Shown here piece after piece: positions 17,053 to 59,954 of a stretch of DNA of 64,000 nucleotides. The notes beneath the pieces were generated by a model that did no database searches, was not told the DNA's origin, and saw only the letters and a list, made by a program, of their open reading frames with translations. This stretch comes from Burkholderiales bacterium (lineage in GTDB: Bacteria; Pseudomonadota; Gammaproteobacteria; Burkholderiales; Burkholderiaceae_C). The position numbers and the translations under genes were made by a program. The stretch spans positions 62,001 to 126,000 of the forward strand of contig JAGWTR010000002.1 of the NCBI GenBank assembly GCA_028868855.1, given 5' to 3'. How positions within the stretch are numbered: the first letter of the stretch is position 1; each line of letters begins with the position of its first letter.

Positions 17053-17133
17053 AATGCCACAGGTTGTGGCCTGTGCTGCGGTGGCGACAAACGGGTTTCT
17101 TGAATGAGTTCCAGCGTGTTGGCTTGAGACAAT

Positions 17134-17209: not shown

Positions 17210-17233
17210 AGTTTGGGTTAGTCAAACCACTGC

Positions 17234-17310: not shown

Positions 17311-17317
17311 CCATTTC

Positions 17318-17354
17318 AAAACGCCTCGGTGCTCATGCTTCGAGGCGTTTTTGT
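17318..17354 (+). terminator. Terminator of the tRNA cluster
   Basis: AAACGCCTCG and CGAGGCGTTT form a stem of about 10 bp around a 12-base loop, followed by TTGTTT. It also lies just behind the convergent maoC-like gene and could serve both directions. Confidence 0.85.
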
Positions 17355-17366
17355 TTGGCAGTCCAC

Positions 17367-32802: not shown

Positions 32803-32830
32803 TTTTCAAATTCTGAGCAAGCAAACCACC

Positions 32831-37898: not shown

Positions 37899-39011
37899 AT
37901 GAATCCAACGCTGTCCATTTGGTTGGAGCTCAGCCGCGTCCTTGCTGCCTTGGTCGTCTTTGTGGGGCACTCGGTGGCTCTGGGGGTTGCGCCGCAAGAG
38001 GTCGGCATGGCATGGCACCGGACGGCCGATGATGCGGTCACTGCATTTTTCGTGATCTCGGGCCTGGTGATTGCCCACTCCACCCGAGCCAGCAAGGCGA
38101 CGCTGAGCGACTACGCGCTGGCGCGCCTGTCGCGGGTGTATTCGGTCGCCTTGCCCACGGTCCTGTTTGCCTTGGCCGTGGATCACATGGGCATGCACTT
38201 CGATGTCACACAGTACGCGCCCAACTGGCAATACCCCAAGCTGTGGCTTTACTTGCCACTGCATTGGCTGTTCCTTGGCGAAACCTGGTTGGGGGCGATC
38301 TATCCGTTCACGATGGCGCCGTATTGGTCGCTGGGTTACGAGGTTTGGTATTACGTCCTGTTTGGCTGCATCACCTTCTTGGCGGGACGCACCCGTTGGG
38401 TCGTGGTGGCTGCGGTGTTGCTGATCATGGGTCCGCGCATTTGGCTGCTGCTGCCCACCTGGTGGTTGGGGGTGGTGCTGTTGCGCTGGCTGGATCGCCT
38501 GCGCATGGGGCGGGGCGCGGCGTTCGGGCTGATGGCCTTGGCGCTGGCGGCTTATGCACTGTTTCTGCTCAGCGGGGTGCGCGGTGCAACTGATGCGGCT
38601 TCTCGGCAGCTCTATGCCTGGTTCAGCTCGGTGCTGACCGCGCCCTTCCATCAGGGCTCCACGGTGCATGTCCTGTCCGACTATGTGGTGGCTTTGTTGT
38701 TTGCCGCTTTCCTGGTGGGTTGTGCGAGTTGCCGGTTCGGTTTTGGCACGAGGGCCGAGGCGCTGATCAGGGCCGCGGCGGCTCATACCTTCACCTTCTA
38801 CCTGATCCACTTCACGCTGCTGGTGTTTGCGCGTGCGTTGGGATATGCCAGCGTCTCTTGGGGCGTCTATGGCGGGATTCTGGGTGCCATCCTGATCACG
38901 ACGTGGGGCCTGGCCAGGATTGGCGAGCAACGCCGGGGCTGGTACCGAACCTTGTTCGCTCGGGCCTGGCGCGCCTTGTCAGGCCTACGCGGGGCCCTCA
39001 AGTTCTCTTAG
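37899..39011 (+). CDS. Acyltransferase-3 family membrane protein
   Basis: A 370-residue protein with about ten transmembrane helices. LELSRVLAALVVFVGHSVALG gives the R...H motif of the acyltransferase-3 (OafA/NodX-like) family, followed by AVTAFFVISGLVIAHS. Such enzymes O-acylate sugars or lipids at the membrane using cytoplasmic acyl donors. It starts 3 bases behind the cupin gene, forming a two-gene unit, and its 3' end overlaps the convergent hydrolase gene by 14 bases. A role in modifying the NRPS-PKS product is possible but unproven; it could equally act on a polysaccharide. Confidence 0.85.
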   Translation: MNPTLSIWLELSRVLAALVVFVGHSVALGVAPQEVGMAWHRTADDAVTAFFVISGLVIAHSTRASKATLSDYALARLSRVYSVALPTVLFALAVDHMGMHFDVTQYAPNWQYPKLWLYLPLHWLFLGETWLGAIYPFTMAPYWSLGYEVWYYVLFGCITFLAGRTRWVVVAAVLLIMGPRIWLLLPTWWLGVVLLRWLDRLRMGRGAAFGLMALALAAYALFLLSGVRGATDAASRQLYAWFSSVLTAPFHQGSTVHVLSDYVVALLFAAFLVGCASCRFGFGTRAEALIRAAAAHTFTFYLIHFTLLVFARALGYASVSWGVYGGILGAILITTWGLARIGEQRRGWYRTLFARAWRALSGLRGALKFS

Positions 39012-39867
39012 ATTCTGCGGGCAATACACGCTGTTGCAGCCACTGAACGGTCATGTCGCTGAACGCCTGTTGCGCTTCTCGCCGTGTGAGCAAATGGTCG
39101 CAGTCGCTCAGGTAGCTGACCGCGACCCGATCGATGAAGTCATGGCCGCTGAACATGTTTCGAAATTGGTCTGCGTGGTTGAACCATTCCGGCTCGCCGC
39201 CGCAGTAAGCCACCAGTAACTCGACGCCGCCATCGACCAGGGTCTGGATGCGACGGGCATATTCCTCACGTGGGGGCACCTGTGAGGCCTCGATCGCGCG
39301 CTGTCCGAGGCTGTTGTCCGGGGCGGCTTGGTCCGTGCGGTGCATGGCCTGCTGCAGCCGCGCCTGCAGTTTGCGGGCCAGACCCAGCAGGCCGGCGCGT
39401 TGCAGTCGGTACAGGAAGGTGCGAAGCCGTGATTGCAGGGTGGGGTAGGCATACAGGTCCCACAGTACGGCTGCGCGCATGCGTGGGTCTTCCAGGGCCA
39501 CCAGATGTGCCACCTCGGCACCGGAGCAGAAGCCGACCATGAAGAAGCGATTGCACTGAAAATGCGACTGGGCCGCATCCATCACCGTGCGTGTATCGGC
39601 GACCCACTGCGTCAACACCGGCAGTGTGCCGCTGGAGCGTTGGCTGTCGCCCAGGCCGCTCATGTCGAATCGAATAGAGGGGATGCCCATCTGGGCAAAG
39701 CGGCGCGCCAGATGCACGTTCATGCGATGGGGGCCACTGCGCGGGATCACGCCGGAATTGCTCAACACGGCCACACAGGGCGGGGTGTTCGCGCTGCGGG
39801 GCGCCGATGGGGTCAAGGTGGCGACGAGGTGCTTCTCGGCGCCCAGGATCAGGGTCTGTTCAGCCAT
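38998..39867 (-). CDS. Alpha/beta hydrolase-fold protein, exosortase-A-hydrolase-1-like, Cys nucleophile
   Basis: A 289-residue alpha/beta-hydrolase-fold protein. The N-terminal SNSGVIPRSGPHRMNVHLARRFAQMGIPSIRFDMSGLGDSQRSS matches the style of exosortase-A-associated hydrolase 1. The nucleophile elbow is GFCSG (residues 112-116) with Cys114 where hydrolases have Ser. A C-terminal His (SDCDHLLTRREA) and an acidic residue are available, so thioesterase or acyltransferase chemistry by Cys is possible. It is the last gene of the NRPS operon, 3 bases after its sister. It overlaps the acyltransferase gene tail-to-tail. Confidence 0.8.
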   Translation of the reverse strand: MAEQTLILGAEKHLVATLTPSAPRSANTPPCVAVLSNSGVIPRSGPHRMNVHLARRFAQMGIPSIRFDMSGLGDSQRSSGTLPVLTQWVADTRTVMDAAQSHFQCNRFFMVGFCSGAEVAHLVALEDPRMRAAVLWDLYAYPTLQSRLRTFLYRLQRAGLLGLARKLQARLQQAMHRTDQAAPDNSLGQRAIEASQVPPREEYARRIQTLVDGGVELLVAYCGGEPEWFNHADQFRNMFSGHDFIDRVAVSYLSDCDHLLTRREAQQAFSDMTVQWLQQRVLPAESKRT

Positions 39868-39870
39868 GGA

Positions 39871-40677
39871 TCAGTCAAGGGTGGACAACAGGGTGCGCGG
39901 CAGGTCGGGGGGGACGATGGCCGTTCCCATGGCCTGGCTGGACATCCAGTTGATGCGGGCCTCCACGGTGTGAAGCCTCAGCAGCGGGCCGTTTTGCAGG
40001 CGTGCCAGCGGGGTGTGCTGCTCCGCATGAACGCCACAGGTGACGCGAATGCCGCGCCGCAGCGCTGGTGCCACGTCGAGGGCGCTCAGGGTTTGTAAAT
40101 CGCGGGCCAACTGCGGGCCGACCTGGAAACCCAGCACATCGCCCGGCAGGGTTGGCTCGTTCACCTTGCCCTGTCGCAGCAGCCGCTCCCAGGGGTGCCC
40201 GAACTCGCGGGCCAGCTCGGCACGGTGGGCATCGAGCAAGGCTTGCACATAGGCCGGGCCGGCCATCACGGGCTCCCACAACACCAGGTGCGCCGGAGGT
40301 GTTTTGGCGCGCAAGGCCGCGCGCATTGCCAAGGTTGCCCCCAATCCCATGCCAAACCAGTTCACCGGCACCCCGGCGCCGGGATCGAGTTGTGCGTGGG
40401 CCGCGAGCGTGTCCTCGACCCAGTCACCGAGCGACTGCTGATCTTCCTCACCCGAGGAGTCCCCGGTGCCGTGGTAGTCAAAGCGCAGGACTTCGCAACC
40501 TTCCCGAGCCAGGCGATCGGACAGGACCCGAAAGATGGCGGCGGTGCGCACGGCTTCCTGGCCAAGCGGGCGACACAATAGATAGCGCGCACGCACAGGA
40601 GTGCCCTGGCGTGACTGCTGGAGCACGCCAACCATGTCGCGGGATGGGCCTCCGAATAGCTTGATCGAGATGTCCAT
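39871..40677 (-). CDS. Alpha/beta hydrolase-fold protein, exosortase-A-hydrolase-2-like, nucleophile replaced by Gly
   Basis: A 268-residue alpha/beta-hydrolase-fold protein. LLCRPLGQEAVRTAAIFRVLSDRLAREGCEVLRFDYHGTGDSSG resembles exosortase-A-associated hydrolase 2. At the nucleophile elbow the sequence is FGMGLGA (Gly109-Met110-Gly111-Leu112-Gly113), so the expected Ser is Gly111. No obvious replacement nucleophile is visible, so it is probably not a normal serine hydrolase and may be a partner or binding protein. The ATG overlaps the NRPS stop by one base (TGATG), which shows tight coupling with the megasynthase. Confidence 0.8.
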   Translation of the reverse strand: MDISIKLFGGPSRDMVGVLQQSRQGTPVRARYLLCRPLGQEAVRTAAIFRVLSDRLAREGCEVLRFDYHGTGDSSGEEDQQSLGDWVEDTLAAHAQLDPGAGVPVNWFGMGLGATLAMRAALRAKTPPAHLVLWEPVMAGPAYVQALLDAHRAELAREFGHPWERLLRQGKVNEPTLPGDVLGFQVGPQLARDLQTLSALDVAPALRRGIRVTCGVHAEQHTPLARLQNGPLLRLHTVEARINWMSSQAMGTAIVPPDLPRTLLSTLD

Positions 40678-43600
40678 CAGGCGCGTTTGATGAGGGCGGC
40701 CAGGCGTTGTGCGAATCCCGCCCGCTTTGCCGGGTCGGGCTTGGCAGAGGCCGGGGATGCGCCGATCTGGTCATAGGCCGCAGCGAGTTGGGCCAATGTT
40801 TCGATCACGTAGCGGCGTGGGCTGAGTTGCTTGCCGATGCGCTGCTCCAGTTGTAGCACCGCTTGCATGGCCAGTAGGGAGGTGCCGCCCAGTTCAAAGA
40901 AGTTGTCCTGCTGTCCCACTTCAGTGATGCCCAGCAGCTCTTGCCAGACCTTGGCGAGTGCTTGCTCTGTGGGGGTGGATGGGGCATGGCGGGGTGTGTC
41001 AGCTGCGGCATGCCGTTTGCGTGACAGCAGCGCCGGGTCGAGGCTCCCATCAAGCAAGCGCGAGATGCGCGCGACTTCCATCAGGTGGGGAGGGGCGATG
41101 TGGCTGGGCAAGGCTTGCCGCAGGGCGGCGCTGCATCGGGCCTGGTCGAGCGAGGCATTCGGGCGTCCCTGAACCCAAGTATGCAGTCGGCGATGTCCCT
41201 GCGCGTCGTCCACCAGGGCGACGGCGGCGTCCTGCACGCCCGTTTGCGCTTTCAGCCGCTGTTCCAGGGCGGTGAGGTCGAGGGCGTGGCCTTCAAGGAA
41301 CGCCGTGCCTTTCACGGGCCCCAGGCATTGCAAAATGCCATCGGTGCGCCAACGCGCCTGCAAGCCGGTGCTGAACGATGTTGATCCTGGGGCTGCCGCA
41401 CACCGCAGTTGGCCGGCAATTCCCGGTGGAACGAGCGCACCCTGGGCATCGACGATGCGCACCCAGTCGGGCACGAGGGGCTGGCCGAACAGGCCACTGT
41501 CCTGGGCCCCCGACAGCAAGCCCGCGGCAATGGGCACGCTTGAGGCGGTCGGTCGGAAAATGGACATGACGGTGGCGTTGGCCTCCAGCAGCGCGGCCAC
41601 CAACTCGGGCGTGGTCTCGGTAACGTCCAGCCAGGCGATCAGCGGCAGCGAAGCGCCGACCGGGTTGGTCGCGAGTAAGCGCGTCCAGGCCGCAGCCGAG
41701 GCGTGCAGCATGGCCACCGACTCGCCACGCACCAGCGCCGCCAGTTGCTGGCCGTCTTGGGCGATCTCGGCATCGGCGAAAACCAGCGCTGCACCTTGGC
41801 TCAGCGCCAGCACGGCTTGTGTCAGGTGCAGGCCACGTGCCGCGTCATCAATGCACAGAACACGGTCTGAGGCGAGCAGGCGGATGTCCTTCGAGAGGGC
41901 GCCGTACAGTGCGCTCAGCGAGTCGCGATCGACCACGGTGGGCGCCGAGCCAGTCAAGGCCATCAAGGCCAATCGCACGTGTCCTTCGGTGGTGCGGCGT
42001 GCCGGGCGGGCGTCCTGGATCTCCTGCGCATCGATCCAGACGGTGCCGTCGATCCCCGCTGGCGTGTCGCTGATGGAGGCATCGATGTGGAGGGCCGGCG
42101 CCAGCGTCTGCAGCGCCTCGAAGGCGGTCTCGGGGTCGAGCACGAGGCAGCGAGCGCCACTGTCCAGAACCGCCAGTGAGGCGATGATCTGGGCCAGGGG
42201 GTCGTCGACGCTCACGGCGATCAGGGCGTGTCTTGCCGTGAGCTTGCTGGCGAGCACGGCCTTGAAGGCCTGCATGCGTTGCCCTAGTTCGCCGTAGGTG
42301 ATGGTGAGCGGTCCGCTGCGCAGGGCGGGGCGATCCGGGGTGGCTGTGATGCGGGCCGCGATGGCTTGCAGGGGATCACCGGCATCAAGGGCGCGGGAGG
42401 GGGCGGTGCTCCAACGTTCCACAAGGGCTTGTTCGGCGGGGCGCATCGCCAGCAACTGGGCCACTGCTTGCCGAGGATCGCTCACGAGCGATGTCAGGGC
42501 GGACACAAAGCGGTTGCACAAGGCTTCGGCGGTGCTGGGCAGGAACAGGTCGGCGTTGTATTGGAACCCGCCTTCGATGCCGCCCGGTATTTCGACCATC
42601 CACAGGTTCAAGTCCTCGGTGGCCGCTTGTTGCAGCAAGGGGATGCGTTCATGAACGAGAGGACCCCAGTGGGTTTGCCGCTGGCGGACATCCTGGAACG
42701 AGAACATGACCTGGTACAAGCGGTTGTCCACCCCTGCGCGTTGACCCGCCATCTCGCGGGACAGCAACTCGAACGGGGCGTCCTGGCTGGCAAACGCGGC
42801 CACCATGGTCTGGCGAACGGATTTGATCCAGTCAAGGCAAGTCAATTGGGGCTGCACCTCCAGGCGGATGGGCAGCATGTTGTTGAAAAAGCCCATGATG
42901 GCGTCCAACTCGGGGGTGGATCGACCACGAAAGGGCATGCCAATGGCGGGTCGGTTGTCGCCCAGCCATTGCGACATGAGTGCGGCGTAGACCGACATCA
43001 TGACGATGCTCAAGGTGCTGCCGGTTTGCTTGGCCACATCACGCACTTGCTCGACCAAGGTGTCGTCCAGGTGCAGCCATTGAGTCGACCCGCGACCTGC
43101 GCTGGCAAATTGACGCGGCACGTCACCCCATGGCGCCTTCGGCATGGCGCCTTCGCCAAATTGTCGACTCCAGTAAGCCACCTGGTCTGTCAATTCATCT
43201 GATTTCAGCCACTCCTGGTGCCACTGGGCGTAGTCGCCATAGGTGATGCTCAGTGGCGCCAGGTCTGGCGCCTTGCCATGGAGCAGCGCTTCGTACAGGC
43301 TGGAGATTTCGGTGTAAAAGATGTCGAATGACCAGCCGTCCCACAGGATGTGGTGGGTCATGAAGAACAAGGCGTGTTCCTGTTCGGCCAGCTTGAACAG
43401 CCGCATCTTGAGCAAAGGGGCCTGGCTCAGGTCGAAGGTTTCGGCCGTCAATGCCTCCAGCCGCTGTGCGAGCACGGCCTCGCGTTGTGGCTTGGGGAGT
43501 TCGCTCAGGTCTTCCAGCGGCAACAAGCTGGCATCAACGTGATCGAGCACTTTCTGTATGTAGCGGCCACCTTGCGGCACGATGGCGGTGCGCAGTGCAG

Positions 43601-46600
43601 GTTGACGCCGAATCATCTCGGCGAAGGCCTGGTCAAAGAGCTGCAAATTCATGGGGCCGGTCAGGCGATGGGCCGACGGCGCGTTGTAGGCCACGCGACC
43701 GGGCTGCATTTCTTCGACGAACCGGATGCGCTCTTGCATGACCGTCAGGGGGGCCGTGCTTTGATCGGCTCGGTGCACGATGGGCGTGCGCTGAAGTTCA
43801 GGGGTGTTTGCGCCGCTGCGCTGACCCTCAATGGCCTGCGCCAGTGTGGCCACGGTGGGGGCTTCAAACAGCGCACGCAAGGTCAACTGGGTGCCCAGTT
43901 GTTTGTTGATTTGCCCGATCACCCGGGCCGCGAGTAAGGAGTGCCCGCCCACGGCAAAGAAGTCGTCGTCCACGCCCAGTTGACGAATCTTGAGCATGGT
44001 CTGCATGGCCTCGGCGATGGTGCGCTCCAGGTCGTTGCGAGGGGCGTGATAGGTGACGCTTGAGGCGGGCTGTGGCTCGGCCGGTGCAGGCAGGGCCTTG
44101 CGATCGATCTTGCCGTTGGGCAGCAGGGGCAGCGCGTCCAGCGCCACGATGTGCTGCGGCAGCATGTAGTCGGGCAGCGTGGTGCGCAGGGTGTCGCGCA
44201 GTTGGGCCACGTCAGCGGTCACACCGGGTCGCGTGACGATGTAGGCGACCAGGCGCACATCGCCCGGGTCGTCTTCGCGGGCCATGACCACGGTGCGGGC
44301 GATGCCGGGCAGCGCGGCCAGGCGCGCTTCGATCTCGCCCAGTTCGATGCGGTAGCCGCGGATCTTGACTTGGAAGTCGAGTCGGCCCAGATGCTCGATG
44401 GTGCCGTCGTCGCTCCAGCGCGCCAGGTCGCCCGTGCGGTAAATGCGCGCACCCGCGTCGCGGCTGAAGGGGTCGGTGATGAACTTTTCAAGCGTCAGCT
44501 CAGGGCGTTTGAAGTAGCCGATGGCCACCCCCGCGCCGCCGATGCACAGCTCGCCTTCCTGGCCGATGGCGCAGGGTTTGAGTTGCTCGTCCAGCACCCA
44601 GACCTGGGTGTTGGCAATGGGACGGCCGATGGTGATTTTCTGCTTGGCATCAACGATGCGGCTGAGCGTGGACCACACGGTGGTCTCGGTGGGGCCGTAC
44701 ATGTTCCACAGCTCGACACCGGCTTGCAGCAGGCGCTCGGCCAGCGAGGGCGGCAGGGGCTCGCCGCCGCACAGGGCCTTGAAGCCGGCGGGTGCGCGCC
44801 AATTGGCGTCCAGCAGCATGTGCCAGGTGGTGGGGGTGGCCTGCATCACATTGATGCCTTGGCTGGCGACCAGGCGGCCCAGCACTTCGCCGTCCATGGC
44901 CTCTTCGCGCTGGGCCAGCACGGTGCGGGCACCCGTGGTCAGCGGCAGGAATAGCTCCAGCACGGCGATGTCGAAGGACAAGGTGGTGACGGCCAGCAGG
45001 CGGTCGCTGGCTTGCAGCCCCGGTTCGCGGCGCATGCTGGCCAGGAAGTTGCACACCGCGTTTTGCGGCAGCACCACGCCCTTGGGCTGGCCGGTGGAGC
45101 CCGAGGTGTAGATCACATAGGCGGGGGCGTCCGCGGGCCAGTGGGCTTGCGCGGGCGGGGCCGTGTCAGGCATGGCGGCAATGGCGGCGGCGTCATCGTC
45201 GATGCGAACTTGCTTGTCTCGGGGCACGCCGCTCAGGTCGGCGTTGAGCGAGTCGGTGATGACCAGGCGCACGTCGGCGTCCTGGGCCATGTAGTGCAGC
45301 CGATCCTTGGGAAAACCGGGGTCCAGTGGCACGTAGGCGGCGCCGGTTTTGAGGATGCCCAGCAGCGACGGGATCAGATCAAGGCCACGGGTCAGGCTCA
45401 CGCCGACCAGCATGCCGGGGCCGATGCCGCGCGACTTCAGGAGGTTGGCGAAGCGGTTGGCACGGGCTTCCAGTGCGGCATAGCTCAGCGTGCGGCCTTG
45501 GGCGACCACGGCGATGGCATCGGGGGTAGCGGCGGCCTGGCGGCTGATCCACTGTTCGATGCGGGCGCCGGGCTCGATTGGGGTGCCGGTGGCGGCGTTC
45601 CAGGCGATGACGCGTGGGTCGGCGGCGGGAATGGTTTTGGCCAAGGCAGGTGACTTGGGCGTTGACGGCAGCGGCTCGGCCATGCTGTCGCATTGCGCCA
45701 CCAGGGCATTGATCAAGGCCTGCGCGCACTCGGGACTGAAGTACTCGCTGCTGTAGTGCAGGTCCAGCGTCAGCGCGTCGTCTTGCTCATAGAAGTTGAA
45801 GAACAGTTCGCTGAGTGTGCCGCCCTTGCGACCTTCGTGCAGGGTGGCCACCAGCGGCGCATAAGCCGACAGGTCGACCTTGGGGTTCAGGTTGAAGTAG
45901 ATGCCGGTGAGCGGTGGGCGGTCGCCCGCGCTGCGAATGCCGAGCGCGCGCGCCACGGTGCTTTGCGTCATCAGCGGCTGTTCCAGCGCGTCCATCAATT
46001 GCGAGCGAACGCGCTTGAGGACGGTGGCGAAGCTTTCTTGCGGCTCGCAGCCCAGACGCAAGGGCAGGTCGAGCACGCCATCGGCCATCAAGGGGCCATG
46101 GTGCTTCAAGGCCTGGCTGGCGTAGGGAATGCTGACGATGAATTCGGGCTGGCCGCTGCGCTTTTGCAGCATCACCGTGACGGCGCTCAGCAGCAGCTGG
46201 AACAGCGTGGCGCCGGACTGGCGGGCGTGTGCGCGCAGGCGGCTGAGCAGCTCACCATCCAGGCGCACGCGCTGGGTGTCGGCCGCATAAGTGCGCGGGA
46301 CGGGCGGCGTGCGGTCACCCAGGTTCAGGTGCGCGGGCGGATGGCGCAAGAGCTGTTGCCAGTGGCGCAGCGACTCTTGGCCCTCGGGGCCTTCGAAGCG
46401 CGCTTGCTCTTCTTCGGCAAAGGCCAAGGGCGACTCGGCGGGCTTGAAGCTGGGCCGCATGCCCATGCTGCGCGCTTTGTAGGCCTGCGCCAGCTCGGCA
46501 TTGAAGACGCTGGAGGCCCAGCCGTCGAACACCAGGTGGCTGGCCACCACATGCACCACCACGCGGCCATCGGCCAGGCGCAGCAGGCTCACGGCGGCAA

Positions 46601-49600
46601 GGGGTGCCTGGTCCAGAGGGAAGTCGCGCTGGCTGGCCTGGGTGCAAAAGGCATCGAGGGCGGCGTGGGCGTCAGGCTGGTTGCGCAGGTCGACTTCGGC
46701 AATGGCCATGGGGCCTGAAGCGCCCAGCACCTGCCGGGGTTGGTCCAGGTCGAAGCGCACGCGGAAGGCGTCATGGCGCTCCAGCACGTCTTGCACGGCA
46801 GTCTTGAGCGCGTCGGCGTTGACCGGGCCCGACAGGCTCAGGCAAAAAGACTCGTTCAAGGCGCGACGCGCATTGGCGTCAAAACTGGCCGCCAGCCAGC
46901 GCTCGGTTTGTCCGGGGGTCAAGGGCGCAGCGTCGTTACCGTTGGGGCCACCAGAGGGGCCTGCTGGTGGGGGGAAGCCTTCACGCGGTGTGATCAGGCC
47001 CAGCCCCATCAATTCGTCCAGCGCCTTGAGGAAGACGTCGAGGATGCGTGCCGTTTCTGCATCGCCCATGGCTTCGGTCACAAAGTGGCCGAATTGTTCA
47101 TACAAGTGCAGGCCGTGGAATCGGGCCAGGTAGTAAAACAGGCTGACGTACTTCTGGTTGTCGTCCCAGCTCAGGCGCCACAGCGAAGCGCAGTGCACCG
47201 CCTGGACGGGGGCACCCCGCACCGCAAAGGCTTCGTTGAGCCGATCAACCAAGCGCTGGGTGCGTTCGTTGAGCGTGCGGTACAACTGCTGTCCGCCCTG
47301 CTTGATGTGCAATAGCGAGGCGCGCGCTGCCGCCAGTGCCAGCGGGTGGCGCACAAAAGTGCCCGCAAAATAGGTGACACCGGCCTCTGGGTAGGAGGCG
47401 TCGCCGTATTGCCAGTGGCCGCCGTCCAGCGCATCCAGCCATTTCGAGCCCCCCGCGATGGCGGCAAAGGGCAGGCCCCCGCCGATGATCTTGCCGTAGG
47501 TGGAGAGGTCCGAGCGCACGCCATAGAACTCTTGCGCACCGCCCGGGGCCAGGCGAAAGCCGGTCACGACTTCGTCAAAGATCAGGGCGCAATCGGCGTG
47601 GTCGGCGATCTGGCGCAAGGACTTCACGAACTCGCGAGGTTGCAAGGTCGGGTACTTGTTCTGGATCGGCTCGATCATGATCGCCGCCAGTTCGTGGCCG
47701 CGTTCACGCAGCACGCGCAAGGAGTCCTCGCTGTCGTAGTCGAGGACCAGGATGTTCTCGACGGCATTGGCCAGGATGCCTGGCGCGGCCGACAGCGAGC
47801 GCAACTGCTTGGTGCCCCGCACGATGACTTCGTCAAAGATGCCGTGGTAGGAGTTGGTGAAGATGGCGATGGTTTTGCGGCCCGTGACCGTGCGGGCGAT
47901 GCGCATGGCGCCCATCACGGCCTCGGAGCCGGTGTTGCAAAAGGCCACGCGTTCCATGCCGGTGAGTTCGGAGATCAGCTGGGCGACCTCGGCGGCGATG
48001 GGGTGCTGAGGGCCGACCTCAATGCCGGCGTCCAACTGGTCCTTCATGGCCTGGATCACCGAGTCGGGCTGATACCCCAGCAGGTTGGCACCAAAGCAGG
48101 ACAGGAGGTCGATGTACTCGTTGCCATCGATGTCCCAGACGTGTGCGCCTTTGGATCGGTCGGCCACGATGGGGTAGACCAGGTCCTTCCACAAGGGGTT
48201 GAAACCGGTGACCACGCGCGGGTCGGCCATGACCTTGCGGTGCTGCTGGCTGAAGGCCTTGGACTGACCCGTGCGGGCGTTGTAGCGGGCGATGAAATCG
48301 TCCAGCCAGCGGCGCTGGGTGGGCGTGAAGTCGGTCTTCGTGTCGAGGGTGATGCGCGCCGAGGCCCCAAAGGGCTTTTCAAGCAGCGAGGTTTTGAGCG
48401 GTGCTTCAGGCTCGGATGGTGCGGGGGGGCGCGGCTGGTGAGGCGTTTGCGCGACGAGGGCGGGCTGGCCCGATAACAAGGCCAATTGCTGGGCCATCAA
48501 CTGCATCTGCTGTTGAATCAACTGGTGAACAGCATCGCCATGGACCGGCAGGGCGGTGGGCATGGCTTGGGCCACTTGAGGCGTGGCCACCGCAGCAGGC
48601 GCTGGGGCGGGCGGCGCAAACTGGTTGGCCGGCACTTCGGCGTCCAGAAACATCGCCAGTTTGGCCAGGGTGTCGAGGTCCTCCAGCAGGCGGCGAAAAC
48701 GCAGCTTGATCCCAAAAACCCGCTCCAGCTCCAGGGTGGCCTGGGTCAGTGACAGGGAGTCCAGGCCTTGGTCCACAAAGGTCGCGTTGCGGTCCACGGA
48801 TTCAGCGGGGAGGCCCGAGACATCACCGAGGATGCGCGTGAGCTCCTGTTCGAGGCGGGGTAGACGGCTCATGGGCGGCAGATCCTCAGCGGCAGGCAAG
48901 ACGAATGGGGCAATGGCGGGCAGGGGGGCGGATTCGACGGCAGGCTCACTGGCCACAACAAGCGCTCGGCGTTTGAACCAGTGAACATCGCCACGGAAGG
49001 GGTAAGCAGGCAAGGGCAATCGCCGGGCGCGGCTGGACACAGGCCAGGCGATGGCCACCCCGGCGCACCACAAGGCACCAAGACCCTGCAGGGCGCGTGT
49101 GGCAGGCGCTCCGGGTTCTTGTGCCGGACCCAGCAGCGAGACGATGCGGGGGACGGTGTTCTGGGCTGTGCGGTGCTGGCGCAACAAGGCCGTCAGTGCC
49201 TGGCTTGGGCCCACCTCCACAAACACCGTCTCGCCCCGCGTCAGTTCGGCCTGGACGGCGCGGCTGAACTGCACGGTGGCACGAACTTGTCGGGCCCAGT
49301 AGGCCGGGTCGGTGGCATCCTCGGCCCGCAAGGGGGCACCGCTGACGCATGAATAAACGGGAATCGACGGTGCGCTCAGGGCCGCTCGGCCCAAGGCCTT
49401 GGACACCTTCGACATGGCGCCGTCCATGCTGGCGCTGTGGAAAGCGTGCGAGACCTTGAGGCGTGTGGTGCCGATGTCCTGGGCTTCTAGCTGGGTGGCA
49501 AAGGCGCTGATGGCCTCATGGGGCCCGGCCACCACGGTCAGGGACGGTGCATTGGCCGCCGCGATTTCAAGGCCAGCCGGCAGCAGGCTGGCGACCACTT

Positions 49601-52600
49601 CGCTGCTGGTGCGAACGGCCAGCATGGCGCCGCTGGGCTGCTCGAACATGGCCTGGCCGCGTGCGATGACTGCTGACATGGCATCGCCCACCGACATCAC
49701 GCCTGCATGACAGGCGGCCGCGTATTCGCCAATGCTGTGGCCGATCATGGCCTGCGCTCGGATGCCCAGGCTGTCCAGCCAGACGGCCAGCGCATACGAC
49801 ACGCTGAACAAGGCGGGCTGCGCGTGCCGGGTCTCGGCCAGTTTGGCTGCCACGGCCGCGTCGCTCGGATCGGCCTCGACCAGCCAGGAGCGCAGGTCGG
49901 CGGCCAGGGCAGGCGGTGCCACGGCCAGGCATTGATCGAAGGCTTCGCGAAAGGCGGGGATCTGGTCGACCAGTTGACGCGCCATGCCGGGGTGTTGCGA
50001 GCCCTGGCCGGGAAACAGAAAAACCACGCGCGGCGTGCTTGATGCGATGGCGGTGGCGCTCTTGACATCGCGCAGCGCGACCACGGCCGAGGCCGCATCA
50101 TGGGCCACGACGGCGATGCGGTGCGGCATGGCCTGCCGACCGCGTGTCAAGGTGGCGACCACGCTGGCCATCGGCGTGCTGGGGTGGCGTTCAAGGTAAG
50201 CGGACAGGTCTTGGGCGCGTTGCAGCGCGGCCTGCGGCGTGCGGGCCGACAGGGGCAAGAGCATTAAGCGGCCGGCATCGGCGACGGCTTCCGTTGGGAA
50301 GGGCTGCACGGGCGCTTCTTCGAGCACCACATGGGCGTTGGTGCCACCGACCCCGAAGGAGCTGACCGCCGCGCGGCGCACGGTCGCGCCGCGCGGCCAG
50401 GCGCGGGCGCTGCCCACGACCTCGAAGGGTGTGTTGGCAAAGTCGATGTGCGGGTTGGGATGGCGGTAGTGCAGCGTGCCTGGAATGACTTCGCGGTGCA
50501 GCGTCAGGGTGGCCTTGATCAGACCAACCACCCCAGCGGCGGCGACCATGTGGCCCAGGTGACCCTTGACGGAGCCGATCTGGCAGAACTGTGTGTCGGT
50601 CGTGTCGCCAGCCCAGGCGCGACTCAGGGCCGCGATCTCGATCGGGTCGCCCAGGGACGTGCCCGTGCCATGCGCTTCCACGTAACCGATGCTGCGGGCG
50701 TTCACCCCGGCATGGTCCAGGGCCATGCGGATGACGTCGGCCTGGCCGGTGACGCTGGGCGCCGTGAAGCTGGCCTTCTCGCCGCCATCGTTGTTCAGCC
50801 CCACCCCCTTGATGACGCCGTAAACGGTGTCGCCATCGTCCAGCGCTTGTTGCAGACGCTTGAGCACCACGACACCGCCGCCACTGGCGAACAGCGTGCC
50901 CGAGGCGTCGGCATCGAAGGGTCGACAGCGGCCATCGGCGGACTCCATGCCGCCTTCCACGTGCAGATAGCCGCCGGCCTGAGGCACGACCACGGTGACG
51001 CCGCCGGCCAGGGCGACATCACATTGGCCTTGGGCCAGCGCATGCCAGGCCTGGGTGATCGCGACCAGCGAGGTCGAACAGGCGGTGTGGATGGACACTG
51101 CCGGTCCGCGCAGGTTCAGTCGATTGGCCGCACGTGTGGCGATGTAGTCCTTTTCGCTGGCCAGCATGGTGGCGAATTCGCCGTATTGCTGGATCAGCTC
51201 GGGCTGCTCGGCGCGCATGGCCGGCAGGTAGGTGTTGTTGGCGCTGCCAGCGTACACGCCGATGCGGGTGTCACGGTCGTCGTCGCTGCCATCACTCACG
51301 CGGACGGGGTCGATGGCGGCGTCTTCCAGGGCCGACCAGCACAGCTCCAGGAACAGGCGCTGCTGGGGGTCGAGCACGGTGGCTTCGCGGGCGGAAATGC
51401 CGAAGAACGCGGCGTCAAACCGGTCAGCATCGTCCATCACGCCGCGTGCCGCCACGAAGTTGGGCCGGCTGCGCAGGGACTCGGGCACCGAGGGATCCAG
51501 CTCGTGCGGGGCAAAGCGGCGGATGCTTTCTCGGTCGGCCAGCAGGTTGTCCCAGAAGGTGTCGATGTCGTGCGCGTTGCCGGCCCGGATGGACATGCCG
51601 ATGATGGCGATGCCATCCTGCGCGGTCGAGGCCGAAGCCTCGGTCGTGTTTCTGCGTTTGTTTTTGCGCTGTGCTGCGGCGCCTTGCAGGCTCTGGGCCA
51701 TGCCGGCGATGGTCGGGTGATCGTAGATGTCGGCGACGCTCAGGTTCAAGCCCAGTTGCTTGAGCCGGCTCACGCAGCGCATCACCAGCAGCGAGCGGGC
51801 GCCGGCGTCGAACACATTGGTGTCGTCGCTCAACTCGTTGATGCCCAGCAATTCTTGCCAGAGCGCGCGCAACTGCTCGGCCACGGGCAGCGGGGCCTGG
51901 CCGGGCGCAGGGGCTGTTGATTCAGGGGTCACCGGCAGGGGCAGGTTGCGTCGGTCGATCTTGCCGCTGGGGGTGGTCGGCAGCATGTCGAGCACGATGA
52001 AGCGCACCGGGATCATGTAGTCAGGCAGGCGCTCGCGCAGCCATTGGCGCAGCTCGCCCAGCAAGTCGCTCCACGGGGGGCTGTCTGCGCGCAGCACCAC
52101 ATGGGCCACCAACTGGCGGCCGCTGCCGGGCACATCGGGCGCTGTCACGGCAGCATCCTGAATGTGCGGATGGGCCATCAGGGCCAGTTCGATGTCGCCC
52201 GGTTCGATGCGAAAGCCGTCGACCTTGAGCTGCTGATCAATGCGTCCCAGGTAGGTCATGAGCCCGCATGGGTCGCGGCGCACCAGGTCGCCGGTGGCAT
52301 ACCAGCGCCCGACCAGGCCCGCCGGAGCGTCGAGGAATCGTTCGGCGCTCAAGGCTGCCTGGCCGAGGTAGCCATGGGCCAGACAGGCGCCGCCCAGCAG
52401 CAATTCGCCGGTTTCACCTGGGCTGAGTGCCTGGGTGTCGGGATCGCGCAGGGCCACCTGAACATGGGGCAGGGCGGTGCCGATGGGCGGGATGCCGGGC
52501 CAGGCCGCCGTCGGGCCAGACAGTTCGAAGGCGGTGACCACATGGCTTTCCGTCGGGCCGTAGTGGTTGTGCAGCACCGCGCGGGGCTGGCGATCGAACA

Positions 52601-53459
52601 GGGCGCGGATGCTCGGGGTGAGTTGCAATTGTTCGCCGGCACTGACCACGTCCAGCAGCGTCAAAGAAGCCTGGCCGTCGGCGTGCGCCTCTTCATCGGC
52701 TTGCGCCAGCATTTGCAAGGCGACGTAGGGCAGAAACAGGCGATCCACCCGGTGCTCGACCAGGGCCTGGCGCAGCATGATGGGGTCGCGTCGGTGGCTG
52801 TCGGGGATCAAGACCAGGGTGCCGCCGCATGCCAGGGTCGAGACGATCTCCTGGAAATGCACGTCAAAGGACAGCGGCGCAAATTGCAAGGTGCGGGCGG
52901 CTCGCCCCAGGCGCGGATGCTCGGCGTGCCATTGAATCAGGTGACGCAGGGGCTGAGCGCCCATCGCCACTCCTTTGGGGCGTCCCGTCGACCCCGAAGT
53001 GAACAGCACATAGGCCAGATCATCGGAGGCTGCGTAAGGGCTGGCCGCCACGGGGGCGACGCGGTCCAGCGTGGGGACATCGCCCCCCACCAGTTCACGC
53101 AAGGTCGCCATGGCCTGGGGATCACCGACCACGGCGCGCAATTGCGCATCGGCCAGCATGGCGCTGAGGCGCTCGGCCGGGTAGGACAGATCCAGGGGGA
53201 CGTACGCGACCCCGACTTCCAGGGCGGCAAGGATGGCGATCACGGTGTCGGCCGAGCGCGTGGCGGCGATGCCCAGGCGGTCACCCGCGTGCAAGCCGGC
53301 AGTACGCAAGGTGGAGGCCTGCTGGTTGACCGCTTCCGACAGCGCTTGATAACTCAACGTGGCGCTCGGCGTTTCCAGGGCGGCTGCTTGTGGGAATCGG
53401 CGCGTAGCCTGGCGCAACCAGTCCCCCAACGGAGTCAGGCTGGTTGACACTTCACTCAT
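40677..53459 (-). CDS. Hybrid NRPS-PKS megasynthase (A-T-KS-AT-ACP-AMT-C-A-T-C-A*-T)
   Basis: A 4,260-residue single-chain synthetase. Domains: A1 (about 1-515, key Asp199, code read by eye DVQFVAHVVK, near proline); T1 (Ser556); KS (about 620-1050, Cys794, EAHGTGT, KGHLGHM); AT (about 1150-1440, Ser1242, HAFH 1338-1341, malonyl type); ACP (Ser1568); PLP aminotransferase (about 1725-2140, Lys1990); C1 (His2308 in SHLVFDG); A2 (about 2600-3120, Asp2830, code DILQLGMVWK, near glycine); T2 (Ser3174); C2 (HH 3369-3370 in HHILWDG); A3 (about 3670-4110, no TSGSTGxPKG, no catalytic Lys); T3 (Ser4194). No KR, MT or TE. Layout resembles McyE and MycA/ItuA beta-amino-acid modules. Start: ATG with AGGGGAA upstream. 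Confidence 0.92.
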   Translation of the reverse strand: MSEVSTSLTPLGDWLRQATRRFPQAAALETPSATLSYQALSEAVNQQASTLRTAGLHAGDRLGIAATRSADTVIAILAALEVGVAYVPLDLSYPAERLSAMLADAQLRAVVGDPQAMATLRELVGGDVPTLDRVAPVAASPYAASDDLAYVLFTSGSTGRPKGVAMGAQPLRHLIQWHAEHPRLGRAARTLQFAPLSFDVHFQEIVSTLACGGTLVLIPDSHRRDPIMLRQALVEHRVDRLFLPYVALQMLAQADEEAHADGQASLTLLDVVSAGEQLQLTPSIRALFDRQPRAVLHNHYGPTESHVVTAFELSGPTAAWPGIPPIGTALPHVQVALRDPDTQALSPGETGELLLGGACLAHGYLGQAALSAERFLDAPAGLVGRWYATGDLVRRDPCGLMTYLGRIDQQLKVDGFRIEPGDIELALMAHPHIQDAAVTAPDVPGSGRQLVAHVVLRADSPPWSDLLGELRQWLRERLPDYMIPVRFIVLDMLPTTPSGKIDRRNLPLPVTPESTAPAPGQAPLPVAEQLRALWQELLGINELSDDTNVFDAGARSLLVMRCVSRLKQLGLNLSVADIYDHPTIAGMAQSLQGAAAQRKNKRRNTTEASASTAQDGIAIIGMSIRAGNAHDIDTFWDNLLADRESIRRFAPHELDPSVPESLRSRPNFVAARGVMDDADRFDAAFFGISAREATVLDPQQRLFLELCWSALEDAAIDPVRVSDGSDDDRDTRIGVYAGSANNTYLPAMRAEQPELIQQYGEFATMLASEKDYIATRAANRLNLRGPAVSIHTACSTSLVAITQAWHALAQGQCDVALAGGVTVVVPQAGGYLHVEGGMESADGRCRPFDADASGTLFASGGGVVVLKRLQQALDDGDTVYGVIKGVGLNNDGGEKASFTAPSVTGQADVIRMALDHAGVNARSIGYVEAHGTGTSLGDPIEIAALSRAWAGDTTDTQFCQIGSVKGHLGHMVAAAGVVGLIKATLTLHREVIPGTLHYRHPNPHIDFANTPFEVVGSARAWPRGATVRRAAVSSFGVGGTNAHVVLEEAPVQPFPTEAVADAGRLMLLPLSARTPQAALQRAQDLSAYLERHPSTPMASVVATLTRGRQAMPHRIAVVAHDAASAVVALRDVKSATAIASSTPRVVFLFPGQGSQHPGMARQLVDQIPAFREAFDQCLAVAPPALAADLRSWLVEADPSDAAVAAKLAETRHAQPALFSVSYALAVWLDSLGIRAQAMIGHSIGEYAAACHAGVMSVGDAMSAVIARGQAMFEQPSGAMLAVRTSSEVVASLLPAGLEIAAANAPSLTVVAGPHEAISAFATQLEAQDIGTTRLKVSHAFHSASMDGAMSKVSKALGRAALSAPSIPVYSCVSGAPLRAEDATDPAYWARQVRATVQFSRAVQAELTRGETVFVEVGPSQALTALLRQHRTAQNTVPRIVSLLGPAQEPGAPATRALQGLGALWCAGVAIAWPVSSRARRLPLPAYPFRGDVHWFKRRALVVASEPAVESAPLPAIAPFVLPAAEDLPPMSRLPRLEQELTRILGDVSGLPAESVDRNATFVDQGLDSLSLTQATLELERVFGIKLRFRRLLEDLDTLAKLAMFLDAEVPANQFAPPAPAPAAVATPQVAQAMPTALPVHGDAVHQLIQQQMQLMAQQLALLSGQPALVAQTPHQPRPPAPSEPEAPLKTSLLEKPFGASARITLDTKTDFTPTQRRWLDDFIARYNARTGQSKAFSQQHRKVMADPRVVTGFNPLWKDLVYPIVADRSKGAHVWDIDGNEYIDLLSCFGANLLGYQPDSVIQAMKDQLDAGIEVGPQHPIAAEVAQLISELTGMERVAFCNTGSEAVMGAMRIARTVTGRKTIAIFTNSYHGIFDEVIVRGTKQLRSLSAAPGILANAVENILVLDYDSEDSLRVLRERGHELAAIMIEPIQNKYPTLQPREFVKSLRQIADHADCALIFDEVVTGFRLAPGGAQEFYGVRSDLSTYGKIIGGGLPFAAIAGGSKWLDALDGGHWQYGDASYPEAGVTYFAGTFVRHPLALAAARASLLHIKQGGQQLYRTLNERTQRLVDRLNEAFAVRGAPVQAVHCASLWRLSWDDNQKYVSLFYYLARFHGLHLYEQFGHFVTEAMGDAETARILDVFLKALDELMGLGLITPREGFPPPAGPSGGPNGNDAAPLTPGQTERWLAASFDANARRALNESFCLSLSGPVNADALKTAVQDVLERHDAFRVRFDLDQPRQVLGASGPMAIAEVDLRNQPDAHAALDAFCTQASQRDFPLDQAPLAAVSLLRLADGRVVVHVVASHLVFDGWASSVFNAELAQAYKARSMGMRPSFKPAESPLAFAEEEQARFEGPEGQESLRHWQQLLRHPPAHLNLGDRTPPVPRTYAADTQRVRLDGELLSRLRAHARQSGATLFQLLLSAVTVMLQKRSGQPEFIVSIPYASQALKHHGPLMADGVLDLPLRLGCEPQESFATVLKRVRSQLMDALEQPLMTQSTVARALGIRSAGDRPPLTGIYFNLNPKVDLSAYAPLVATLHEGRKGGTLSELFFNFYEQDDALTLDLHYSSEYFSPECAQALINALVAQCDSMAEPLPSTPKSPALAKTIPAADPRVIAWNAATGTPIEPGARIEQWISRQAAATPDAIAVVAQGRTLSYAALEARANRFANLLKSRGIGPGMLVGVSLTRGLDLIPSLLGILKTGAAYVPLDPGFPKDRLHYMAQDADVRLVITDSLNADLSGVPRDKQVRIDDDAAAIAAMPDTAPPAQAHWPADAPAYVIYTSGSTGQPKGVVLPQNAVCNFLASMRREPGLQASDRLLAVTTLSFDIAVLELFLPLTTGARTVLAQREEAMDGEVLGRLVASQGINVMQATPTTWHMLLDANWRAPAGFKALCGGEPLPPSLAERLLQAGVELWNMYGPTETTVWSTLSRIVDAKQKITIGRPIANTQVWVLDEQLKPCAIGQEGELCIGGAGVAIGYFKRPELTLEKFITDPFSRDAGARIYRTGDLARWSDDGTIEHLGRLDFQVKIRGYRIELGEIEARLAALPGIARTVVMAREDDPGDVRLVAYIVTRPGVTADVAQLRDTLRTTLPDYMLPQHIVALDALPLLPNGKIDRKALPAPAEPQPASSVTYHAPRNDLERTIAEAMQTMLKIRQLGVDDDFFAVGGHSLLAARVIGQINKQLGTQLTLRALFEAPTVATLAQAIEGQRSGANTPELQRTPIVHRADQSTAPLTVMQERIRFVEEMQPGRVAYNAPSAHRLTGPMNLQLFDQAFAEMIRRQPALRTAIVPQGGRYIQKVLDHVDASLLPLEDLSELPKPQREAVLAQRLEALTAETFDLSQAPLLKMRLFKLAEQEHALFFMTHHILWDGWSFDIFYTEISSLYEALLHGKAPDLAPLSITYGDYAQWHQEWLKSDELTDQVAYWSRQFGEGAMPKAPWGDVPRQFASAGRGSTQWLHLDDTLVEQVRDVAKQTGSTLSIVMMSVYAALMSQWLGDNRPAIGMPFRGRSTPELDAIMGFFNNMLPIRLEVQPQLTCLDWIKSVRQTMVAAFASQDAPFELLSREMAGQRAGVDNRLYQVMFSFQDVRQRQTHWGPLVHERIPLLQQAATEDLNLWMVEIPGGIEGGFQYNADLFLPSTAEALCNRFVSALTSLVSDPRQAVAQLLAMRPAEQALVERWSTAPSRALDAGDPLQAIAARITATPDRPALRSGPLTITYGELGQRMQAFKAVLASKLTARHALIAVSVDDPLAQIIASLAVLDSGARCLVLDPETAFEALQTLAPALHIDASISDTPAGIDGTVWIDAQEIQDARPARRTTEGHVRLALMALTGSAPTVVDRDSLSALYGALSKDIRLLASDRVLCIDDAARGLHLTQAVLALSQGAALVFADAEIAQDGQQLAALVRGESVAMLHASAAAWTRLLATNPVGASLPLIAWLDVTETTPELVAALLEANATVMSIFRPTASSVPIAAGLLSGAQDSGLFGQPLVPDWVRIVDAQGALVPPGIAGQLRCAAAPGSTSFSTGLQARWRTDGILQCLGPVKGTAFLEGHALDLTALEQRLKAQTGVQDAAVALVDDAQGHRRLHTWVQGRPNASLDQARCSAALRQALPSHIAPPHLMEVARISRLLDGSLDPALLSRKRHAAADTPRHAPSTPTEQALAKVWQELLGITEVGQQDNFFELGGTSLLAMQAVLQLEQRIGKQLSPRRYVIETLAQLAAAYDQIGASPASAKPDPAKRAGFAQRLAALIKRA

Positions 53460-53561: not shown

Positions 53562-54437
53562 TCAAGGGCTCAGAAATGCGTTGGCGTGCGCTGCCGTGCG
53601 AATTGGGTCTTCCTGCATGAAGCAGTGGCCGCCTGACACCTGCAGGCTTTCGACATGCGGGTTGATGAGTTGCCATTGCCTCGCGGAGGCGGTGACGAAG
53701 GGGAAGGTGCGTTCACCGTGAAGCATCAGCGTGGGGGTGGTGATGCGGCTCAGCGCGCTCCATAGACCTTGGGGCGCCGAACTGAAAATCTCGGACTCTC
53801 GCTGCGGTGCGCATTTCAAGGAGATGCCGCCCTCCGGGGCTTCGCGCAAGGCGTGATCGACAAAGGCCTGCAAGGATTCATCGGTCCAGCCACGGTAGGT
53901 GCCACGGCCCTCCAGGGACGATTTGGCTTCGGCGCGATCTGGCCAGTGCTGGCGGCGTGCGCGCGCGCTGCGGGCCAGAGGGTGGTGGCCGCTCAGGCCG
54001 GTCCATTGAGCCATGGTCATGGCCCATAGCATCGCGGGGCTGAACAGCACCGGGTCCAGCACCACGGCGCGTTCAAAAAGTTGGGGGTGCTGGGCCAGGG
54101 TCAAGCAGGTCAGCACGCCCCCAAAGCTGTGTCCCATGGCTGACCTGGGTACGTCGCTGAACAGGGGCAGGTGAGCCGTGAAGGCCTCGGCGGCCAGATC
54201 CGCGCTGCGGTTCCATCCGACGAATCGATCGCCGTGGTCGCTGTCGCCATGACCTTGCACGTCGCTCAGCCACAGGTCAAAGTGCTCGGACAGGGGGGCC
54301 AACATGGGCGTGTAGACGCGTCCGCAAAAGCCATTGCCATGCAGGAAATGCAGCAAGGGCTTGCCCGAGGGCGGGGAGTGCCAGCCCCGCAGCACAAAGC
54401 CTTCACAGGCGGTGTGGGTCCAGGGAGTCAACTGCAT
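53562..54437 (-). CDS. Alpha/beta hydrolase with intact Ser nucleophile
   Basis: A 291-residue alpha/beta-hydrolase-fold protein. The oxyanion region is LHFLHGNGFCGRVYTPMLAPL; the nucleophile elbow is AMGHSFGGVL (Ser104). The acid is near LMLHGERTFPFV and the His is in SGGHCFMQED, so the triad is complete, unlike the two hydrolases after the megasynthase. It is 102 bases upstream of the NRPS-PKS gene on the same strand and may start the operon. A thioesterase or release role is plausible, because the megasynthase has no TE, but it could also be unrelated. Confidence 0.82.
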   Translation of the reverse strand: MQLTPWTHTACEGFVLRGWHSPPSGKPLLHFLHGNGFCGRVYTPMLAPLSEHFDLWLSDVQGHGDSDHGDRFVGWNRSADLAAEAFTAHLPLFSDVPRSAMGHSFGGVLTCLTLAQHPQLFERAVVLDPVLFSPAMLWAMTMAQWTGLSGHHPLARSARARRQHWPDRAEAKSSLEGRGTYRGWTDESLQAFVDHALREAPEGGISLKCAPQRESEIFSSAPQGLWSALSRITTPTLMLHGERTFPFVTASARQWQLINPHVESLQVSGGHCFMQEDPIRTAAHANAFLSP

Positions 54438-55786: not shown

Positions 55787-55900
55787 GGAGTGTTTCCTTA
55801 ATCGTTGGATTCTGAGGGGAGGGGTTGTCAAATTATGACGCGTCGCAGCATGCTGCCAGATCCGGGCCGCTGGCAAAGCCGGTGGATCATGAAAAACCAC

Positions 55901-56836: not shown

Positions 56837-58455
<1,619 letters not shown>

Positions 58456-58477
58456 GCAAGGTCAAGGAGAACACCAC

Positions 58478-58921: not shown

Positions 58922-58931
58922 TGCGACCGAG

Positions 58932-59906: not shown

Positions 59907-59954
59907 CGCAAACACATGAACAAACACCAACAAAACACAAAAGAGGACTGCCCA

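Follow-up and report, generated by a model that had tools for sequence, protein, structure and literature searches.

A giant enzyme of a freshwater bacterium and its predicted product, an unusual proline-derived beta-amino acid linked to glycine

Background

In the mycosubtilin and iturin synthetases MycA and ItuA, a polyketide synthase (PKS) module is followed by an aminotransferase (AMT) that aminates the beta-ketoacyl chain, and the starter of MycA is a fatty acid brought in via an acyl ligase. McyE of microcystin biosynthesis, like the cyanobacterial beta-amino polyketide lines, has its AMT fused behind a PKS module, with C-A-T following. For the starters of these cyanobacterial lines, the available text of one source names alpha-keto acids, aryl groups and fatty acyl groups (PMC13252402). 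An A-CP-KS-AT-CP-PLP1 block with the string Nrp-Mal-Gly-Pk was tabulated in 2013 for Pedobacter heparinus C6XWU5, and the table names no product for it (Table 2 in PMC3870968).

The window analysed here is a stretch of 64,000 nucleotides from a Burkholderiales bacterium (contig JAGWTR010000002.1). Its synthase shares with MycA and ItuA the PKS module followed by an AMT predicted to aminate the chain, and with McyE and the cyanobacterial lines the fused AMT and the C-A-T behind it. Unlike MycA, it begins with an A-T starter for an amino acid, coded for proline, and no lipid is predicted; proline is also not among the starters named in the available text on the cyanobacterial lines. With the tabulated Pedobacter block it shares A-CP-KS-AT-CP-PLP1 followed by glycine, as far as the table shows, and this layout is therefore already known. 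Newly seen are a dead adenylation domain behind which condensation and carrier domains stay intact, the replacement of a thioesterase (TE) by a pair of hydrolases, and the nearness to EpsB_2 genes in some relatives. A search of mostly open-access literature found no product with this scaffold, no nonribosomal peptide synthetase (NRPS) product from Aquabacterium, no NRPS with an exosortase or XrtA system, and no proline-derived beta-amino or pyrrolizidine product.

The synthase gene and its domains

The earlier note had placed an open reading frame at 40677..53459. The frame exists and encodes 4,260 amino acids, but its strand had to be corrected: the gene lies on the minus strand, and a plus-strand reading of 40677-53459 is ruled out by many stops. 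An AMT 89% identical to that of the window lies in ORFs of about 4,150 amino acids in three congeners, so the ORF is more than chance. The 4,260-residue protein matches the Pfam models for AMP-binding, Condensation (two stretches), PP-binding (four), ketoacyl synthase, acyltransferase and class-III aminotransferase; the 12 Pfam families matched do not include KR, DH, ER or thioesterase. The proposed order A-T-KS-AT-ACP-AMT-C-A-T-C-A*-T in one protein, A* being a degenerate adenylation domain, is borne out by Pfam and by a search using the protein's own domains. This order, the pocket codes, the motif losses and the conservation described below are read from the sequence itself. The gene and its domains are as follows.

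40677..53459, minus strand: NRPS-PKS megasynthase, 4,260 aa (ORF and translation, Pfam, homologues)
51930..53432, minus strand: A1, proline-type adenylation domain, aa 10-510 (code DVQFVAHV; core matches TycB1, GrsB1 and prolyl ligase 6o6e)
51660..51887, minus strand: T1 carrier, GARSL (own-domain search, motif)
50355..51626, minus strand: KS, TACST (Pfam, motif)
49140..50033, minus strand: AT with malonyl-type motif, GHSIGE and HAFH (Pfam, motif)
48645..48872, minus strand: ACP, GLDSL (own-domain search, motif)
47115..48362, minus strand: AMT, PLP class-III aminotransferase of MycA type, STYGKIIGG (Pfam, structure-sequence match, motif)
45660..46937, minus strand: C1, SHLVFDG (motif alignment)
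44085..45617, minus strand: A2, glycine-type adenylation domain (code DILQLGMVW; core matches 4zxh and 5u89)
43824..44042, minus strand: T2 carrier, GGHSL (motif)
42420..43766, minus strand: C2, HHILWDG intact (motif)
41070..42392, minus strand: A*, degenerate adenylation domain, code unreadable (alignment with intact A3 domains, dN/dS)
40770..40997, minus strand: T3 carrier, GGTSL, final domain with no TE behind it (motif)

The active-site motifs of KS, AT (both motifs) and AMT (PLP lysine) are present, and all four carriers keep their serine. With A, C, T, KS and AT in one protein and the active-site motifs kept, the synthase is a hybrid of NRPS and type I PKS. Its end departs from a canonical terminal NRPS module, which would have a functional A domain and a TE; here A* is dead by its motifs and a TE is absent. 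C1 has SHLVFDG instead of HHxxxDG, and SH stands in 25 of the 26 members of the clade described below that show C1, the other (L030) having NH.

Predicted substrates and product

What would such a line make? Pocket codes were read from an alignment of 239 A-domain pieces, taken from related loci as well as from the window, with position 517 of A1 and A2 and position 331 of A1 read by eye. The A1 code, re-read as DVQFVAHV(V)(K), is near that for proline, as had been claimed. In the PDB the A1 core is matched best by TycB1 (75 bits), GrsB1 (68 bits) and the prolyl-carrier ligase 6o6e (40 bits), all others scoring 34 bits or less; TycB1 and GrsB1 we take to be proline-specific. A1 thus has the pocket code and the nearest solved relatives of a proline-activating domain, and we are highly confident that it would activate proline. 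The A2 code, DILQLGMVW(K) on re-reading, is likewise near that for glycine, and its core is closest to 4zxh (136 bits) and 5u89 (133 bits), presumably both glycine enzymes, with 8www third (120 bits). From this DILQLGxxW pocket and these relatives A2 looks like a glycine-activating domain, and glycine is very probably the next residue. Glycine is not universal among the relatives, since the A2 code is DVWHLSLVD, which we take to be a serine code, in G016, G014 and G039, and DMPQMGLVY in G029 and G036 (G and L numbers are our handles for genomes and loci).

Among solved structures the AMT is nearest to mycosubtilin MycA (6kfu and 6kfm, 390 and 388 bits; runner-up 184 bits). As a class-III aminotransferase behind KS-AT-ACP, with MycA as nearest relative and the PLP lysine motif kept, it belongs by sequence to the MycA-type beta-aminotransferases. 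The AT motif, the Pfam result and this match support the earlier reading of a malonyl AT, no KR and beta-amination. Extension with malonyl can be expected with good confidence, and the AMT would quite probably carry out beta-amination without ketoreduction. Given HAFH in the AT, the lack of a KR and the matches of A1, A2 and AMT, the proposed 3-amino-3-(pyrrolidin-2-yl)propanoyl-glycine is sound as a prediction. A proline starter with malonate and amination would give a beta-amino acid scaffold with a vicinal diamine, of which we found no description.

We lean slightly towards a complete assembly line with helpers, running Pro-Mal-AMT-Gly, with T3 charged by another A domain, release by the neighbouring hydrolase hydr1, and tailoring. 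The substrates, the order of the steps, the loading of T3, the release and the tailoring are the parts that we infer. L-Proline would be loaded by A1 onto T1, and KS-AT would add one malonyl unit to give a beta-ketoacyl chain. As there is no KR, the beta-ketone on the ACP would be transaminated by the AMT to 3-amino-3-(pyrrolidin-2-yl)propanoyl-ACP. C1 would then couple the beta-aminoacyl chain to glycine on A2-T2, and C2 would hand the chain to T3. T3 would be charged by another adenylation domain, most simply A2 with glycine, which would give carrier-bound beta-amino acid-Gly-Gly; the same chain is predicted for relatives with an intact glycine-coded third A domain. Release would take place in trans by the cysteine hydrolase hydr1 with its non-catalytic partner hydr2. 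A cupin would probably hydroxylate the product, and a membrane acyltransferase may acylate it.

Could the chain leave the line earlier? The pyrrolidine nitrogen is gamma to the thioester carbonyl, so that by chemical reasoning attack of the free NH on the ACP thioester would be a favourable five-ring closure, giving 1-aminopyrrolizidin-3-one with an amino-pyrrolizidine skeleton. Such off-loading would leave the downstream modules useless, and yet C-A-T-C-(A*)-T is conserved and C1, A2 and C2 have low dN/dS in close pairs. We therefore regard it as very unlikely, and go on with the complete line.

Distribution and phylogeny

The earlier note had called the protein undescribed. Its architecture is not unique: the Pedobacter heparinus block was already tabulated and related lines are widespread; congener homologues, wider relatives and the tabulated block also rule out the gene as a lone oddity. 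All 149 genomes searched with the AMT match some class-III aminotransferase; the counts that follow apply E cut-offs. At E <1e-200, 19 of 42 Aquabacterium genomes match (the window's own included); at E <1e-100 there is a match in 4 of 48 genomes from the family's other genera and in 2 of 59 from elsewhere in the order. Sphaerotilaceae, Lysobacteraceae, Rhodocyclaceae, Myxococcota, Cyanobacteriota and many Bacteroidota are among the best 80 of the 588 relatives in a scan of species genomes. Members of the family occur across the Proteobacteria, and Bacteroidota have a form of it that ends in a TE. Of the 33 plasmid records that a search retrieved, none reached 60% identity.

In a tree of 97 AMT domains, from which (as from the counts) eight loci duplicating G contigs were left out, the window falls in a clade of 28 rows with support 100/99; the named rows are all Pseudomonadota and the rest are congeners. 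A proline-type A1 code is found in 22 of the 23 clade members with a readable A1 (in G024 the parser split A1, and the code is on the first piece). The exception is L033 (Caldimonas tepidiphila, 3890-17818), whose A1-KS-AT is of another kind with a glycine-like code and whose remainder lies within the clade, an apparent exchange of the starter half. No A1 is seen in five rows (G009, G031, L027, L029, L030), four of them on short or cut sequence. In L027 (Lysobacter sp. CAU 1642, 5453-6600) the synthase ORF begins at T1, with an epimerase ORF directly before it and no A1. Unlike the window line, most Bacteroidota loci are split into two proteins and carry a TE at the C-terminus. Most of their A1 domains have the code DVQFMAQV, which is proline-like with Gln for His; the substrate there is less certain.

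The degenerate last adenylation domain

Alignment with intact A3 domains shows that A* has lost its phosphate-binding loop, the YGPTE and YRTGD motifs and the catalytic lysine; C2 and T3 keep their motifs. How do the relatives end? The region is visible in 26 clade members. The third A domain is intact and glycine-coded in ten (G011, G027, G008, G017, G033, G024, G001, G005, L017, L018), as it also is in the distant L037 outside the 28-row clade; it is degenerate in 12 (the window, G016, G014, G039, G041, G029, G036, L016, L026, L033, G004, G034) and absent in four (L025, L027, L030, G031). G031 (L127, reverse strand) has a tandem in its ORF at aa 939-2005, a serine-like and then a glycine-like A domain in C-A-A-T-C-T, which places two A domains before two carriers; this genome is 71% complete and the arrangement could be an artefact. 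In Aquabacterium commune DSM 11901 the codes and domains give Pro-Mal/AMT and then C-A(Gly)-T-C-T-C-A(Gly)-T.

In the 16 loci with a dead or missing A domain, HHxxxDG of the last C domain is kept in 14, G004 and G034 having HHLVWD followed by another residue, and the T3 serine is kept in 15, the exception being G036, which is cut at its end. The dN/dS of A* is 0.21 for G016-G039, 0.21 for G016-G014 and 0.24 for G004-G034, two of these pairs sharing G016; in the same three pairs it is 0.09-0.13 for A1, 0.04-0.07 for A2 and 0.03-0.08 for C2. Three pairs of intact A3 give 0.15, 0.11 and 0.10. Set against this range of 0.10-0.15, the 0.21-0.24 of A* indicates relaxed selection even in close pairs, which is still purifying. 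The window's own A* forms a single pair (with G016) with dN/dS 0.50, in which A2 gives 0.61 (glycine against serine code) and C1 0.41, and A* of G041-G029 gives 0.82. We think that A* has been retained as a scaffold; the selection in congeners supports this, and for the window's own A* it may hold as well. Might the whole cluster be decaying and non-functional? The motifs lost in A* would fit, but the remaining domains keep their active residues, dN/dS is low in close congener pairs and the frame runs through 4,260 amino acids without a stop, which makes decay extremely improbable.

Then how is T3 charged? As A* is dead while C2 and T3 are intact, and other relatives have no A domain or a glycine A domain at this place, T3 is probably charged by another A domain; whether it would carry glycine is evenly balanced. 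We hold it unlikely that an adenylating enzyme encoded elsewhere charges T3 in trans instead, or that T3 carries nothing while C2-A*-T3 acts as a release or docking platform, so that the product ends at the first glycine. A-less and dead-A ends do recur among relatives, a stand-alone AMP-ligase lies 1.2 kb downstream of the C-T end of L025, G031 has A-A before T-C-T, and L027 is without even A1. Yet ten clade loci keep an intact glycine A3, and no stand-alone ligase is linked among the annotated neighbours in the window. In other genomes, members of the L025 ligase family with similar scores are found at a distance from the synthase. The position of the ligase in L025 may therefore be fortuitous, and this weakens it as a dedicated T3 loader. 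Charging by another A domain, with A2 as the simplest, thus remains our preferred reading. Trans-loading of carrier proteins can be tested directly on this natural series, in which the terminal A domain is intact, dead or missing and the C and T domains are intact.

Proposed release by a hydrolase pair or a thioesterase

Two alpha/beta-hydrolase genes follow the synthase on the same strand, hydr1 directly after hydr2.

39871..40677, minus strand: hydr2, alpha/beta-hydrolase lacking the nucleophile, GMGLG (one base is shared by its start and the stop of the synthase)
38998..39867, minus strand: hydr1, alpha/beta-hydrolase whose elbow GFCSG has Cys in place of the usual nucleophile, Asp-His invariant (model pLDDT 86)

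The hydr1 elbow is GxCS[GA] in all 23 sequences, its Asp-His invariant in 16 of 16 aligned, and the nucleophile position of hydr2 is Gly or Arg in 21 of 21. Their best NCBIfam models are TIGR03100 for hydr1 (63.2 of 168.45 bits) and TIGR03101 for hydr2 (80 of 202.75 bits), the exosortase-A associated hydrolases 1 and 2, which are likewise an adjacent pair of unlike alpha/beta-hydrolases. The scores lie far below the curated cut-offs, so membership in these families was rejected, and the window pair differs in being tied to an NRPS-PKS. The two appear to be a coupled pair, remotely akin to the exosortase-A-associated hydrolases.

Is there any relation between this pair and the TE? With one Bacteroidota TE as seed, and matches above 50 bits counted, we scored 97 loci and set aside 20 in which the assembly line is followed by fewer than 1,500 bases or no C domain is visible; G073, although it has the hydr pair, is one of these because its stretch ends in an unrelated ORF. 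The 77 loci with a visible 3' end comprise 46 with TE only, 26 with the pair only, two with both (Lysobacter L086, L090) and three with neither in the flank covered (L025, G089, G098). TE and pair are thus almost mutually exclusive in these 77 loci (Fisher p = 5e-15, which overstates independence because the split is mostly by phylum and the rows are related). Outside Bacteroidota, four loci have a TE and no pair (L034, L045, L047, L085). Release of the product by hydr1 is rather likely, and the swap of TE for pair points to a release system for which our literature search found no study. In L086 and L090 the TE is followed by one more carrier domain, besides the hydr pair.

Neighbouring genes and the fate of the product

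The earlier note had described a single-protein line. The line is not self-contained: in congeners hydr2, hydr1, a cupin and a PPTase, in some with an acyltransferase, adjoin the synthase. The remaining neighbours in the window are these.

37899..39011, plus strand: membrane acyltransferase, Acyl_transf_3 (Pfam; also in 3 other loci)
37008..37895, plus strand: Cupin_8/JmjC-like protein, HxD...H intact (the ORF is open from 36978, and 37008 corresponds to the ATG used as start in several relatives; model pLDDT 87)
36196..36948, minus strand: 4'-phosphopantetheinyl transferase, PPTase (family match, congener comparison)
53562..54437, minus strand: alpha/beta-hydrolase on the upstream side of the synthase (5 congener loci have it there too)

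Across 26 loci compared, several of them too short to show these genes, the cupin is found in 17, the PPTase in 17 and the membrane acyltransferase in four. The HxD...H facial triad of the cupin (H144, D146, H217) is invariant in 14 of 14, and its profile matches FIH weakly (E 0.0017); with triad kept and FIH matched, hydroxylation by the cupin is plausible. Another Aquabacterium subgroup has a GDSL-like gene and a 265-aa gene without Pfam match between cupin and PPTase. A 630-aa protein with an N-terminal hydrophobic stretch, by eye of CocE/NonD (S15) hydrolase look, occurs in the G016 cluster (L096/L097), G039 and L016. Calvin-cycle genes surround the cluster in the window (54602-61064 and 32735-33838: CbbR-like LysR, RuBisCO large subunit, AAA protein), with two fructose-bisphosphatase-like ORFs seen by eye. 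Within the genus (loci L096-L126) the cluster sits in at least two neighbourhoods, typA/truB/infB-like, or efflux with fbp/pepN-like (names mostly by eye). The window genome (G000) has another Condensation-domain protein at C10:132241-133578, in a 1,212-aa frame.

Where does the product go? One proposal is that hydr2/hydr1 hand the proline-derived beta-aminoacyl-glycyl unit to a sugar of an XrtA-type surface polysaccharide. The line would then make a peptide-polyketide decoration of exopolysaccharide (EPS) instead of a free metabolite, and the megasynthase would correspond, in fused and elaborated form, to the adenylating-ligase and hydrolase genes that are named after the exosortase-A system and have no function assigned. 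In Aquimonas L025 and Lysobacter L027 the synthase comes after a TviB-like UDP-GlcNAc dehydrogenase and an epimerase, beside EpsB_2, a glycosyltransferase marker of the XrtA system, which scores over the cut-off; G073 has an XrtA chain-length determinant upstream, also over the cut-off. Further flank matches are TviB-like (L016, L018, L033, L090), EpsB_2-like (L031, G046, L086, L090) and chain-length-like (G089). EpsB_2 exceeds the cut-off in 18 of 21 genomes searched. Six of the 18 have it at a distance of 0.8-8.8 kb from the synthase (L025, L027, L086, L090, G046, G073), and four more at 25-36 kb on the same contig, as judged from hydr1 places (L016, L017, L026, L033), so that ten of 18 are within 36 kb. 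Under random placement, with an assumed genome size and kinship ignored, P is about 4e-9 for the six, 6e-6 if they are taken as 4 lineages, and 2e-13 for the ten. In the window genome EpsB_2 is about 119 kb from the synthase on the same contig; it is on other contigs in G016, G034, G011 and G008, and none is over the cut-off in G041. Since the linked members G073, G046, L086, L090 and L033 have other A1 codes, the polysaccharide link belongs to the wider family.

The product may instead be a small metabolite that diffuses freely (metal chelator, inhibitor or signal) and has no polysaccharide relation, a reading that we neither favour nor disfavour. In G034 (L104:16620-19916) genes for an AcrB-type efflux pump, an HlyD-type fusion protein and a TetR/CecR-type regulator are found upstream of the cluster, with homologues in four other loci, which speaks for a diffusing product; no such trio is seen next to the window cluster. 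The Bacteroidota members end in a TE without the hydr pair, the window cluster sits among Calvin-cycle genes and not EPS genes, and by reasoning only a vicinal diamine with amides could bind metal. Against a diffusing metabolite, the annotated genes close to the window cluster include no transporter, and EPS genes adjoin the synthase or lie near it in several relatives. With the nearer EpsB_2 places speaking for the polysaccharide proposal and the efflux genes of congeners against it, our estimate of it is unchanged: it is doubtful, and the link is a lead, not proof. As such, the nearness to exopolysaccharide loci gives a testable hypothesis for the function of the exosortase-A-associated hydrolases.

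The sheath polysaccharides of Leptothrix and Sphaerotilus bear peptide. As a precedent they were dropped, the literature available on them consisting of titles and a passage on cysteine in the sheath, and in the same partly available literature no paper tying an NRPS-PKS to XrtA loci stood out. In Aquincola tertiaricarbonis epsB2 is reported to be needed for floc formation (PMC9850573). The exosortase itself was rejected as the link, as nine of the 21 genomes have no exosortase match and five of those nine have EpsB_2 within 10 kb of the synthase. The window genome carries three exosortase genes over the cut-off, at C1:476588, C8:393365 and C8:388926.
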